From contig CABXCC010000005.1 of NCBI GenBank assembly GCA_902510475.1, positions 1 through 64,000 on the forward strand: a stretch of DNA of 64,000 nucleotides, read 5' to 3'. The position numbers were made by a program, and so were the translations under genes. Source of the DNA: an uncultured Bacteroidota bacterium (GTDB lineage Bacteria > Bacteroidota > Bacteroidia > Flavobacteriales > Flavobacteriaceae). Shown here piece by piece: positions 6,959 to 13,264 of the stretch; the first letter of the stretch is position 1, and every line of letters starts with the position of its first letter. Below the pieces are notes generated by a model, which had not been told where the DNA came from, ran no database searches, and worked only from the letters and a program-made list of their open reading frames with translations.

Positions 6959-7924
6959 ATGAAAAAAATATTTACACTCTTAGCATTAACTATTACATTT
7001 AGTATGAATGCACAAGTAAGCACAAACAGTACAAATCCTACAGGTACTTATGCTTCAGCAATGGGAAATGGCACAACAGCAAGTGGCAATGAGTCTACAG
7101 CAATGGGGTATGATACAACAGCAAGCGGAGAAGCTTCTACAGCAATGGGATATAGCACAACAGCAAGCGCACAAGGTTCTACAGCTATGGGAAGGGGCAC
7201 AACAGCAACAGGTACTTATGCTTCAGCAATGGGGTATAATACAACAGCAAGTGGATTAATTTCTACAGCAATGGGAAGTGGCACTACAGCAAGCGCACAA
7301 GGTTCTACAGCTATGGGAAGTGGCACTACAGCAAGTGGAACTAACTCTACAGCTATGGGGAATGGCTCAACAGCAAGTGGATATTATTCTACAGCAATGG
7401 GAGTGAGCACAACAGCAAGTGATTTTGGCTCTTTAGTAATCGGACAATTCAATTCTTCAGGTTCATCTGCAACAAGTGCAAATTCATTTTCTACTTCTGC
7501 TCCTGCTTTTGTGATTGGAAATGGAACTAACAACTCGAACAAATCAGATGCTTTTAAAGTACTTTTTAACGGAGATGCTACAGTAAGCAATGACCTAACA
7601 GTAAGTGGAGATGTTAATATTTCATCCGATGCAAGATTAAAGTCAAACATTGTATCTCTTGGTTCTACACTTCCTAAACTATTACAAATAGATGGTAAGT
7701 CCTATGAGATGAAAGGCAAACAAAAGATAGGTGTACTTGCACAAGAGATTCAAGAAGTGTTTCCTGAACTTGTAAGTGAGGATGACAATGAAATGTTAGC
7801 AGTAAACTATCAAGGATTAGTGCCTGTACTTATCAATGCATTGAAAGAGCAGGAGTCCAAAATTATTAATCAGCAATCTCAAATTGATGAGCTTAAAGTA
7901 TTAGTAAATAAACTCATAAACTAA
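6959..7924 (+). CDS. Secreted YadA-head-like repeat protein with peptidase S74 domain
   Basis: A 321-aa protein with a signal peptide (about 1-18, ending MNAQ). Nine near-perfect 14-residue repeats of the form STAMGxxTTASGxx fill residues 32-157. They resemble the left-handed beta-roll heads of trimeric adhesins. After NSSGSSATSANSFSTSAPAF comes a C-terminal S74 chaperone domain (DARLKSNIVSLGS, KIGVLAQEIQEVFPELV, QGLVPVLINALKEQ) and a short coiled coil. It is a shorter paralogue of the gene at 3614, sharing the whole C-terminal third. The expected product is a trimeric surface fibre; export beyond the inner membrane is unproven because no T9SS tail is visible. Confidence 0.85.
   Translation: MKKIFTLLALTITFSMNAQVSTNSTNPTGTYASAMGNGTTASGNESTAMGYDTTASGEASTAMGYSTTASAQGSTAMGRGTTATGTYASAMGYNTTASGLISTAMGSGTTASAQGSTAMGSGTTASGTNSTAMGNGSTASGYYSTAMGVSTTASDFGSLVIGQFNSSGSSATSANSFSTSAPAFVIGNGTNNSNKSDAFKVLFNGDATVSNDLTVSGDVNISSDARLKSNIVSLGSTLPKLLQIDGKSYEMKGKQKIGVLAQEIQEVFPELVSEDDNEMLAVNYQGLVPVLINALKEQESKIINQQSQIDELKVLVNKLIN
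7052..7429 (+). repeat. 42-bp in-frame tandem repeat, nine copies
   Basis: Nine consecutive 42-bp units encode the 14-residue STAMGxxTTASGxx repeat. Units differ mainly at the residues after AMG and after ASG. Unit number could vary between strains by slippage or recombination. Confidence 0.85.
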
Positions 7925-9335: not shown

Positions 9336-9366
9336 TTGTCTAAGAATCTAATCGTTCTTATTTTTG
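9336..9366 (+). promoter_or_regulatory. Complete Bacteroidota promoter for sdhC
   Basis: TTG at 9336-9338 and TATTTTTG (TAnnTTTG) at 9359-9366 are separated by 20 bases, within the known -33/-7 spacing. The sdhC ATG lies at 9384, 18 bases downstream. A longer reading from the TTG at 9336 would start inside this promoter, which is the main reason to prefer 9384. Confidence 0.65.
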
Positions 9367-9383
9367 TGTTACAAATAATATTA

Positions 9384-10043
9384 ATGAAAAATTTTTTGTT
9401 TACATCAATCGGTAAAAAATTTGCAATGGCTTTATCTGCAATTTTTTTAATGATATTTTTATTGCAGCATTTTTTAATTAATATAACTTCGGTTTTTAGT
9501 GAAAGTCTTTTTAACTGGCTATCACACTTTATGGGTACTAATCCTCTTGTTCAATTTATACTACAACCTGTTTTAATAGCAGGTGTAATTTTTCATTTTA
9601 TAATGGGTTTCTTTTTGGAGATTCAAAATAGAAGAGCTACTAAATACGAGTATCATAAAGATAGAGGTGGTGCTAATTCAACTTGGATGAGTAGAAATAT
9701 GATTTGGAGTGGATTGGTTATACTTTCCTTTTTGGTATTACATTTTATAGATTTTTGGATCCCTGAAATGAATCATAAGTATGTTGAATTTTTACCTGAT
9801 GATCCAAATAGATACCACCATGAGCTTGTTGAAAAATTTCAAGACCCCTATAAAGTAGTTTTCTATTGTGTCTCATTTGTATTGTTATCTCTTCATTTGC
9901 TTCATGGATTTTCATCATCACTGAAATCAATGGGAACTAATAAATCTTATGCATCTTCTGTTAAAAATGTAAGTTATGCGTATTCGATTGGCATACCCCT
10001 TGGTTTTTGTTTCATTGCAATCTTTCATCATTTTTCACATTAA
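9384..10043 (+). CDS. sdhC: Succinate dehydrogenase cytochrome b subunit
   Basis: This is the haem-binding membrane anchor of succinate:quinone oxidoreductase, of the single-subunit five-helix type used by Bacteroidota. The protein is 219 aa from the ATG at 9384, opening MKNFLFTSIGKKFAMALSA. Hydrophobic helices alternate with conserved His in LQHFLINI, IFHFIMGFF, VLHFIDFW and LLHGFSSS, the expected haem and quinone-site positions. An in-frame TTG start 16 codons upstream sits inside the promoter and adds residues unlike the family. It is the first gene of sdhCAB. Confidence 0.93.
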   Translation: MKNFLFTSIGKKFAMALSAIFLMIFLLQHFLINITSVFSESLFNWLSHFMGTNPLVQFILQPVLIAGVIFHFIMGFFLEIQNRRATKYEYHKDRGGANSTWMSRNMIWSGLVILSFLVLHFIDFWIPEMNHKYVEFLPDDPNRYHHELVEKFQDPYKVVFYCVSFVLLSLHLLHGFSSSLKSMGTNKSYASSVKNVSYAYSIGIPLGFCFIAIFHHFSH

Positions 10044-10055
10044 TATAGATATTTA

Positions 10056-10135
10056 GTGTTACAAACGTGTTACACTTTCTTGAGAGCATATATTTAATAT
10101 ACTGATTTTCATTGTGTTACAATACGTGTTACAAA
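10056..10135 (+). promoter_or_regulatory. Four phased GTGTTACA direct repeats between sdhC and sdhA
   Basis: GTGTTACA begins at 10056, 10067, 10114 and 10126. These are two pairs with internal spacing of 11 and 12 bases, about one helical turn, and the pairs start 58-59 bases apart. Most copies continue as GTGTTACAA. A fifth copy lies at 9366 upstream of sdhC. Phased direct repeats next to a reading frame that opens with a recombinase-like arm-binding domain suggest remnant arm-type integrase sites. That role is inference; a transcription-factor operator is the alternative. Confidence 0.55.
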
Positions 10136-10173
10136 TTATCTTATATTTTTTATATTAAAATTCAAATTATTAG

Positions 10174-10181
10174 TATTTTTG
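10174..10181 (+). promoter_or_regulatory. -7 promoter element upstream of the fused sdhA
   Basis: TATTTTTG matches TAnnTTTG 14 bases before the ATG at 10196. No TTG occurs at the -33 position. If used, sdhA would have its own transcript in addition to read-through from sdhC. Confidence 0.4.
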
Positions 10182-10195
10182 TATAAAATTTAGAA

Positions 10196-12511
10196 ATGTC
10201 AAAGAAGAAGTTAACCTATTCTTTAAACTATAGACGACCCAAGTCTGAGTATAAAGATTCTGATGAGTTGATGATATGTATTAGATATTATCATAAATGT
10301 AATCATACATCCAAGACTAAAATTATAAAAAAGAGTACTGGGGTTAAGTGTAAGTTGCAAGATTGGAATACCGACTGGCACCTTACAAAAGACAGAAGCC
10401 CTGTTAAATCATCCGATCCAGATTTCAAAAAGAAAAACAAGATTCTTAAAGAAAAAGTTAAATCTTTTGATATTGAAAAACTCTACAGCTCTGTTAAGAA
10501 TGAATCGTTCTCAGATTATCTAAATTCTAAATTACCAAAAGGCCCTATTGACAGAAAATGGACAAATCATAAAAATACGATAGATCTAGTAAGCCCAGCA
10601 AACAAAAGAAATATTGATATTATAGTTGTTGGTACAGGCCTGGCAGGTGGTTCAGCCTGTGCAACCCTTGCAGAGCTGGGTTATAATGTTAAGGCTTTTT
10701 GTTTTCAAGATTCACCAAGAAGAGCACACTCGATTGCAGCTCAAGGAGGCATCAATGCTGCTAAAAATTATCAAGGTGATGGTGATTCTATTTATAGATT
10801 ATTTTATGATACTGTTAAAGGAGGCGACTACAGATCCAGGGAAGAAAATGTTTATCGATTAGCAGAAGTTTCGGCTAATATTATTGATCAATGTGTTGCG
10901 CAAGGTGTACCATTTGCTAGAGATTATGGAGGTTTGTTAGATAATAGATCCTTTGGAGGAGTATTGGTTTCAAGAACTTTTTATGCCAAAGGACAAACTG
11001 GACAACAACTATTATTGGGAGCATATTCTGCAATGAATAGACAGATTGCCAGAGGAAAAATAAAAATGTATAATAGACATGAAATGTTAGATGTTGTTCT
11101 TGTTGACGGAAAAGCGAGAGGTATAATAACAAGAAATTTAGTGAATGGTGAAATTGAAAGCCATTCAGCTCACGCTGTAGTTCTTGCAAGTGGAGGGTAT
11201 GGAAATGTTTTTTATTTATCTACCAATGCCATGGGTAGTAATGTTACTGCTGCTTGGAAAGCACACAAAAGAGGTGCATACTTTGCAAATCCTTGTTTCA
11301 CTCAAATTCACCCGACATGTATCCCTGTGTCTGGAGACCATCAGTCAAAATTAACACTAATGTCAGAGTCATTAAGAAATGACGGGAGAATATGGGTTCC
11401 CAAAAATATTCATGATGTAGAGTCCATAAGAAAAGGTGAGCTAAGACCGACTGAAATTACTGAAGAAAATCGAGACTATTTTTTAGAAAGAAGATATCCG
11501 GCTTTTGGAAATTTAGTTCCAAGAGATGTGGCCTCAAGGGCAGCAAAAGAAAGATGCGATGCAGGTTTCGGAGTTAACAAAACCGGTGAAGCGGTTTATT
11601 TAGATTTTGCTTCAGCAATTATTAGATATGGTAAAGAACAAGCTTTGGTTGACGGAAAAGATGAAAAAAATGACGAGATTGTTCAGAGCCTTGGAAAAGA
11701 AATTATCAAGAAAAAATATGGTAATTTATTTCAGATGTACGAAAAAATTGTTGATCAAAACCCCTATGAAACTCCTATGATGATTTACCCTGCAGTTCAC
11801 TACACAATGGGAGGTGTATGGGTAGATTATAATTTGATGACTACAATCCCAGGATTGTATGCAATTGGCGAAGCTAATTTCTCCGACCACGGAGCCAATC
11901 GACTTGGCGCCTCTGCATTAATGCAAGGACTTGCAGACGGCTATTTCGTTCTTCCCTATACAATTGGAGATTATTTGTCAGATGATATTTCAACTGGTCC
12001 TATACCAAATGATTCTCAGGAATTTATTAATGCGGAAAAAGAAGCCAAAGAAAAAATAGATTTTTTTGTAAATAATAATGGGTCAAAATCTGTTGATTAT
12101 TTTCACAAAAAATTAGGAAAAATTATGTGGAATAAATGTGGGATGGCTAGAAATAAAAAAGATTTAGAATCTGCAATTCAAGAAATATCTGAATTGAGAA
12201 AAGAATTTTTTAAAGAAGTAAAAGTACCTGGAGATCAAAATGAGTTTAATGAGGAATTAGCGAAAGCAGGAAGGGTAGCAGATTTTCTTGAACTTGGCGA
12301 GCTTTTTGCAAAGGATGCACTGGAAAGAGAGGAATCGTGTGGAGGACACTTTAGAGAAGAGCATCAAACTAAAGAAGGAGAAGCAACAAGGAAAAAAGAA
12401 TTTCAGTTTGTTTCCGCCTGGGAGTACATGGGTGAGCCTAAAAATGCAATCTTACACAAGGAAAACCTAGAATATGAAAATATTGAAGTTAAAGAAAGAA
12501 GTTATAAATAA
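10196..12511 (+). CDS. sdhA: Succinate dehydrogenase flavoprotein subunit with integrase-like N-terminal extension
   Basis: This subunit oxidises succinate to fumarate with covalently bound FAD at the inner membrane. The 771-aa product has SdhA homology from about residue 109 ([18 protein letters not shown]). It includes the Rossmann motif GTGLAGG (146-152), the FAD-linking His178 in [37 protein letters not shown] and [17 protein letters not shown]. Flavobacterial SdhA normally begins at the equivalent of residue 109. Residues 1-108 are extra, with [24 protein letters not shown] and [17 protein letters not shown], which resemble the arm-DNA-binding domain of Bacteroidota tyrosine recombinases. 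No in-frame ATG lies between codon 26 and the SdhA core, and no GTG or TTG occurs in the 50 codons before it, so the core cannot easily start alone. Confidence 0.9.
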
Positions 12512-12517
12512 TCTATA

Positions 12518-13264
12518 ATGAAACTGAAACTAAAAATTTGGAGACAGAAAAATGCAGATACTAATGGAGGTATTGTGAATTATGATATTGACAATATTTC
12601 ACCTGATATGTCATTTTTAGAAATGTTGGATGTATTAAATGCAGATTTGATTTCCAAAGATGAAGAACCTGTTTCATTTGATCATGATTGCAGGGAAGGT
12701 ATTTGTGGTTCTTGCTCATTATTTATAAATGGCCAGGCACATGGACCAGACAGGCGAATTACCACTTGCCAACTTCATATGAGAAAATTTAAAGATGGTG
12801 ATACTATATACATTGAGCCATTTAGAGCTAAGGCGTTTCCTGTTATAAAAGATTTGGTTGTTGACAGAAGTGCTTTTGATAGGATTCAACAGTCTGGCGG
12901 GTACATTTCTGTAAATACATCAGGAAACACACAAGATGCAAATTCAATTCCGATTAATAAGGATGATGCTGATACTGCTTTTGATGCTGCAACATGCATC
13001 GGCTGTGGAGCATGTGTAGCTACGTGCAAAAATTCATCAGCAATGTTATTCGTGGGCGCTAAAGTCTCTCAATATTCTTTGCTCCCCCAAGGAAAAACTG
13101 AAGCATCTAGACGTGTTATGAATATGGTCAATCAAATGGATTTGGAAGGTTTTGGAAATTGTTCAAATACTGGAGCTTGTGAAGTCGAGTGTCCTAAGGG
13201 AATTTCTCTTGATAATATTGCTAGAATGAATAGAGAATTAATGAAAGCTTCCGTCAAAAAATAA
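12518..13264 (+). CDS. sdhB: Succinate dehydrogenase iron-sulfur subunit
   Basis: SdhB passes electrons from FAD to quinone through three Fe-S clusters. The 248-aa protein has the [2Fe-2S] ligands in CREGICGSC and a later Cys (ITTCQLH), the [4Fe-4S] motif [11 protein letters not shown] and the last cluster region [15 protein letters not shown]. Length and motif order match the fumarate reductase/SdhB type of Bacteroidota. It starts 6 bases after sdhA, and its stop abuts the stop of the convergent lipoprotein gene. Confidence 0.96.

Follow-up and report, generated by a model that had tools for sequence, protein, structure and literature searches.

There are known cases of enzymes that control their own genes, and the best comparison for the locus described here is PutA, the trifunctional proline utilization A of Escherichia coli. 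PutA is a flavoenzyme with an N-terminal DNA-binding domain, which acts in autogenous repression and is released upon association of the protein with the membrane (PMC5293562). A second group for comparison is formed by tyrosine recombinases, such as lambda Int and IntTn916, which have an N-terminal arm-binding domain (PF17293) and short tandem repeats near their gene (PMC8138268). The third consists of the sdhCAB operons of Flavobacteriaceae with an unfused SdhA.

The sdhA gene studied here encodes a succinate dehydrogenase flavoprotein fused to an N-terminal recombinase-type domain. Like PutA, the fused SdhA is a flavoenzyme that associates with the membrane, carries a DNA-binding domain at its N-terminus (DNA binding being assigned by homology) and has sites in its own control region; it would likewise exert autogenous control over a catabolic or respiratory operon, whereas repression and redox switching, which are known for PutA, would apply to SdhA by analogy. 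The two proteins are not homologous, as Pfam recognizes FAD_binding_2 and Succ_DH_flav_C and no PutA domain (RHH, PRODH/P5CDH) in the fused SdhA. Whereas PutA combines a ribbon-helix-helix domain with proline/P5C dehydrogenase, the fused SdhA has a tyrosine-recombinase arm domain and is a subunit of a multi-subunit complex. Hence, it may work like PutA without being a PutA. With lambda Int and IntTn916, it shares a homologous N-terminal domain, for which three strands and a helix are predicted, and short tandem repeats near the gene; unlike in these systems, the sdh locus has no core-binding or catalytic recombinase domain, att site or element, and its sites overlap promoters. Compared with the unfused sdhCAB operons, the enzyme is the same (74-86% identity over the SdhA part) and so is the gene order, but the unfused operons have no arm domain, no GTGTTACA and a short sdhC-sdhA gap (~10 bp; mean 10 bp, vs. 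122 bp in fused loci). In the 160 bp upstream of sdhC, 15 of the 21 unfused loci (L126-L152) contain a CATTCTAAAT-type motif, as opposed to six of 49 fused loci; this motif is a candidate site for the ancestral sdh regulator, whose role may have been taken over by the fusion.

The window, i.e., the whole stretch of 64 kb that was analyzed, contains the following features of the sdh operon, all on the forward strand:

9359-9366 (+): TATTTTTG, -7 promoter element of sdhC, from sequence and the TAnnTTTG consensus (PMC9723704)
9366-9373 (+): fifth GTGTTACA site, overlapping the sdhC -7 element and the presumed transcription start
9384-10043 (+): sdhC, membrane subunit
10056-10074 (+): tandem site pair 1, GTGTTACA-AAC-GTGTTACA, period 11 bp, at about -140/-129 from the sdhA start, conserved in ~10 related species
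10114-10133 (+): tandem site pair 2, GTGTTACA-ATAC-GTGTTACA, period 12 bp, conserved near -82/-70 from the sdhA start
10174-10181 (+): TATTTTTG, predicted -7 element for a promoter separate to sdhA, from sequence; most loci in the window's clade have it at -22
10196-10480 (+): arm-binding domain at the N-terminus of the fused SdhA (residues 1-95), from profile alignment, Pfam, a structural model and dN/dS
10481-10519 (+): variable linker between arm domain and SdhA, with higher dN than the flanking domains, varying length and pLDDT <50
10520-12511 (+): SdhA catalytic part (FAD_binding_2, Succ_DH_flav_C), from Pfam; orthologous to unfused SdhA
12518-13264 (+): sdhB, iron-sulphur subunit

The first-pass annotation had pointed to four helically phased GTGTTACA repeats just upstream of sdhA. 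The four copies, starting at 10056, 10067, 10114 and 10126, all on the (+) strand, indeed lie in the 152-bp gap (10044-10195) between sdhC and sdhA (771 aa), with 11 and 12 bp within the pairs and 58 and 59 bp between them. The phasing holds for the members of a pair, where 11-12 bp corresponds to approximately one helical turn. It does not extend to the pairs relative to each other, since 58-59 bp is ~5.5 turns, which puts them on different faces of the helix, even though this spacing is conserved across species. The fifth copy, said to overlap the sdhC promoter, was found there as well; it runs into TATTTTTG at 9359-9366, and an identical overlap (TATTTTTG-TGTTACA) precedes sdhC in nine further loci. 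Single copies are only slightly in excess (five in 64 kb vs. 1.7 expected, with three of 100 shuffles reaching five). When the entire 1.23-Mb assembly was searched for spaced pairs, as had been proposed, the sdh gap was the single location of the tandem pair, and the reversed control pattern gave no match.

The frame next to the repeats had been proposed to begin with an integrase-type arm domain, and profile comparison bears this out. The SdhA of most family members starts at around residue 105-109 of the window protein, the first ~95 residues of which are therefore extra. The remainder is SdhA, with FAD and C-terminal domains, encoded in an operon with sdhC and sdhB. The profile of the extra domain aligns with the N-termini of ~530-aa tyrosine recombinases (hhalign probability 99.7, E 7.6e-27), and all three of these recombinases that were checked by Pfam contain Arm-DNA-bind_5, SAM_5 and Phage_integrase domains. 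PF17293 (Arm-DNA-bind_5) was matched by 22 of 37 fused members (E up to 0.5; best 8.6e-7), but the window's own N-terminus alone gave no match to an arm-domain family in Pfam. An AlphaFold2 model of the domain (pLDDT 85) predicts strands at 6-10, 24-34 and 41-53 and a helix at 77-89 (β-β-β-α). Fold searches with this model gave no credible match and retrieved no solved arm domain, and a sequence search of the PDB gave no relative of the domain. The full-length model is poor (pLDDT 53) and agrees only with a separate N-terminal domain followed by an unordered linker. The core-binding and catalytic domains of a recombinase are absent, with SdhA following the arm domain instead; by its domain content, the fused protein carries an arm domain but is not an integrase. 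No tRNA genes were found in the 64-kb window, and no att site or integrated element at sdh; judged from this context, the sites at sdh are exapted and not part of an element. Elsewhere in the window (6959-7924), a 321-aa protein with TTASGxxSTAMG-like repeats has an end that, by eye, resembles a Peptidase_S74 chaperone domain; it is a probable adhesin or tail-fibre-like protein.

The fusion is not confined to this genome. A scan of 84,980 species genomes for the arm domain yielded 53 loci, all from Flavobacteriales (by record title) or from uncultured Bacteroidetes single cells, and every locus on a long enough contig is an SdhA fusion, with the exception of L212 (see below). The fusion is present in ~50 marine Flavobacteriales genomes and is old and conserved. 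The arm domain was not found in searches of viral contigs, and no report of a succinate dehydrogenase fused to an integrase or DNA-binding domain came up among the listed titles and abstracts of open-access papers. In SdhA trees, the fused rows do not form one clade (AU p 0.0005, quick tree), which implies that the fusion was lost, e.g., in G046/L126 within a fused group, or spread laterally. Two near-identical sdh contigs (L190 and L196) in one Crocinitomicaceae MAG (SP82) probably reflect a duplicated or contaminated assembly.

For the comparison of sites, the control region was taken to comprise the gap between sdhC and sdhA and the 160 bp that precede sdhC, in a fused set of 54 loci (50 with full SdhA, forming 37 clusters at 97% SdhA identity) and an unfused set of 21 loci. 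In the fused set, GTGTTACA is the commonest 8-mer in this region, with 126 exact copies where 0.89 were expected; no exact copy was found in the control regions of the unfused set. Eight fused loci lack an exact copy and have two to three variants instead, e.g., GTGTTATA. Spacings between sites on the same strand concentrate at 11-12, 22-23, 35-37 and 46-48. The sites turn over, changing strand and position, while the sdh control region remains their constant location, and they are kept in otherwise diverged intergenic DNA. Inverted copies are found near the start of sdhA in several lineages, and an inverted pair upstream of sdhC in others; in L234, where the gap is only 3 bp, sites are found only upstream of sdhC. 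After correction for the tree, four to five independent pairs remain, of which all or nearly all go in the expected direction, but the contrast is not significant. Because independent contrasts are so few, turnover and exclusivity carry most of the comparative argument. The possibility that the motif is equally common in unrelated DNA found no backing: only three exact sites lie beyond the sdh control region in all fused contigs examined, and of 397 genomes of the family, 11 have the tandem pair (reversed control 0).

In genomes without the fusion, the GTGTTACA pair mostly marks integrated elements. Upstream of four integrases of 402-408 aa in three unfused genomes, all with Arm-DNA-bind_5, SAM_5 and catalytic domains, tandem GTGTTACA is located at a distance of 10-45 bp, so that the predicted adjacency to arm-domain recombinases was found. 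In G219 (two elements) and G196, where the integrases measure 405-408 aa, tandem GTGTTACA is also present at the tRNA end, beside att repeats of 46-48 bp (tRNA-Arg or tRNA-Ala). The pair also precedes an integrase in G087 and lies near a tRNA in G155 and G199. With repeats just inside both element ends and directly upstream of an arm-domain integrase, these are, by position, arm-type sites. The pairs of G267, G240 and G275 are within coding sequence and were regarded as chance occurrences. Pairs with 4-base spacing in IMG/VR contigs were considered as phage arm sites and rejected, as no related integrase was found at those loci; their spacers suggest 12-bp in-frame coding repeats, and this spacing peak was not used as evidence. 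The SdhA domain has no close sequence similarity (hhalign E 0.19) to the 405-aa integrases with exact GTGTTACA sites. Its nearest relatives, the ~530-aa integrases, are located after a tRNA gene and have tandem repeats with a 12-bp period just upstream (TTGTGTTCCAAATTGTGTTCTAAAT, TTTGTTCCAAATCTTGTTCCAAAT, TGGGGTACTATATGGGGTACTA), with an inverted copy near the start codon in L176. This layout of tandem repeats plus an inverted copy at the start is that of several fused loci, and the motif letters are related but different (GTGTTCCA, TTGTTCCA, GGGGTACTA). In L179, L180, L182 and L183, the ~530-aa integrases lie just downstream of tRNA-Phe, with coaX (type III pantothenate kinase) across the tRNA; given its occupation in four different genera, tRNA-Phe/coaX is a recurrent integration locus. 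The earlier proposal that sites and domain were captured together is well supported, as the pairs are integrase arm sites in unfused relatives, and neither a motif common in unrelated DNA nor its absence near arm-domain recombinases was found.

The position of the sites relative to promoters bears on what they might do. The -7 element of flavobacteria and other Bacteroidota has the consensus TAnnTTTG at -12 to -5 (PMC9723704). A site overlaps such an element in 27 of the 54 fused loci: 12 direct sites do so (1.75 expected), as do 16 of the 29 inverted ones (0.85 expected). A site over a -7 element constitutes repressor geometry. The paired sites in the window's clade are located ~41-118 bp upstream of the sdhA -7 element (10174-10181), a place used by activators, and could also be suited to activation. 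With the pairs at -140 to -70 relative to the start serving as upstream activator sites, the fusion might instead activate sdhA. This opposite sign is unlikely, though it deserves to be kept in mind, as repression accounts better for the sites that, in half of the loci, cover an sdhC or sdhA -7 element.

Two natural variants are informative. In G136 (L169, L212), the catalytic part has gone and the arm domain is encoded by a stand-alone gene (131 aa), the product of which ends near PLEKKW, a sequence of the SdhA start. The domain groups with that of the fused L191 (support 98/94), and the differences between the two are mostly silent (pN 0.11, pS 0.74). As in the window, pepP is located upstream; the arm gene is followed by a remnant of the native sdhC, lies upstream of a different SDH operon and is surrounded by four GTGTTACA copies. 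In L169, another SDH type, with a 295-aa membrane subunit without a Pfam match and a 618-aa flavoprotein, has taken over the position of the native sdh operon, of which the sdhC remnant is left. In G055, a second GTGTTACA pair lies directly upstream of a gene for a 587-aa SdhA/FrdA-like flavoprotein (L174:1175-2971), which is divergent from a flavodoxin gene and located ~1.5 kb upstream of the fused sdh operon.

Perhaps, the sites are bound by a separate host transcription factor, with the arm domain of SdhA having another role or none. The difference in letters from the sites beside the nearest integrase relatives would fit such a factor. Yet, sites are present in 54 of 54 fused loci when variants are counted and in none of the 21 unfused ones, they accompany the stand-alone domain in G136 and are scarce in the rest of these genomes, and the same pairs are the arm sites of integrases with this type of domain, which together make this explanation improbable. 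It is harder still to regard the locus as a relic, i.e., a harmless insertion of an integrase 5' end of which domain and sites are decaying without function. The N-terminal domain does evolve faster than the SdhA part, as a relic would, and its dN/dS is somewhat higher than that of the enzyme, but it is far below 1, and the dN of the linker is much higher. In 12 of 14 pairs, dN/dS for residues 1-95 is 0.01-0.09, over dS up to and above 1 (the other two pairs are saturated), and 23 columns are invariant across the 37 species. By these measures, the arm domain is under strong purifying selection. Its retention as a stand-alone gene and the preservation of the sites in diverged intergenic DNA also make a relic very improbable. 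Least credible of all is an anti-element decoy, in which the arm domain would compete for arm sites with GTGTTACA-class integrases, blocking integration or excision, and the sdh sites would be incidental; integrases with identical arm sites do exist in the family, but in few genomes, PADLOC gave no match, and the sites cluster only at the sdh control region, where they overlap promoters.

Quite probably, then, the 5' module of an integrase was captured, the repeats are operators derived from its arm sites, and the fused SdhA binds them as an autogenous regulator, presumably a repressor, of the sdh operon. The homology of the arm domain, its selection, the enrichment and exclusivity of the sites, their overlap with promoters and their identity with integrase arm sites argue for this autogenous regulation, as do the stand-alone domain kept with four sites in G136 and the second pair at the SdhA/FrdA-like gene in G055. 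The earlier suggestion that SdhA might bind its own promoter thus gains comparative support. Counted against the reading as a whole are the 405-aa integrases, which have the exact motif and are not close to the SdhA domain, the different site letters beside the nearest integrase relatives, the fold search without a solved arm domain, the four to five non-significant contrasts, and the fused rows that are not one clade.

In the proposed scenario, a recombinase 5' module comprising tandem arm sites, promoter and arm domain would have come to lie between sdhC and sdhA and been fused in frame with the beginning of sdhA, with loss of the core-binding and catalytic recombinase domains. Arm domains on SdhA molecules outside the membrane complex would bind GTGTTACA over the sdhC and/or sdhA promoters and thereby keep the operon repressed. 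They would be released from the sites once SdhA is assembled into the membrane complex or its FAD or substrate state changes. That the domain physically binds the sites, that the effect is repression and not activation, and what acts as the signal are all inferred.

Whilst PutA is a precedent for self-regulating enzymes, we met none with a respiratory-complex or TCA-cycle subunit built from the DNA-binding domain of a mobile element. The many natural variants, in which sites have moved or been inverted, the enzyme swapped or the domain freed, make the hypothesis directly testable. The fusion concerns small-genome marine flavobacteria, with many single-cell and metagenome assemblies. For these bacteria we lean, with some reserve, towards a wider reading, in which a complex II subunit would act as transcription factor on the operon that encodes it and, in one relative, probably also on a second SdhA/FrdA-like flavoprotein gene, by means of a captured arm domain and its arm sites. 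It would sense unassembled or redox-changed SdhA at the promoter and would have replaced an ancestral regulator; the module could disappear, move from one lineage to another or persist on its own as a regulator after the enzyme has gone. An integrase 5' module, bringing both a domain and its DNA sites, may rewire the control of a central operon in one step.
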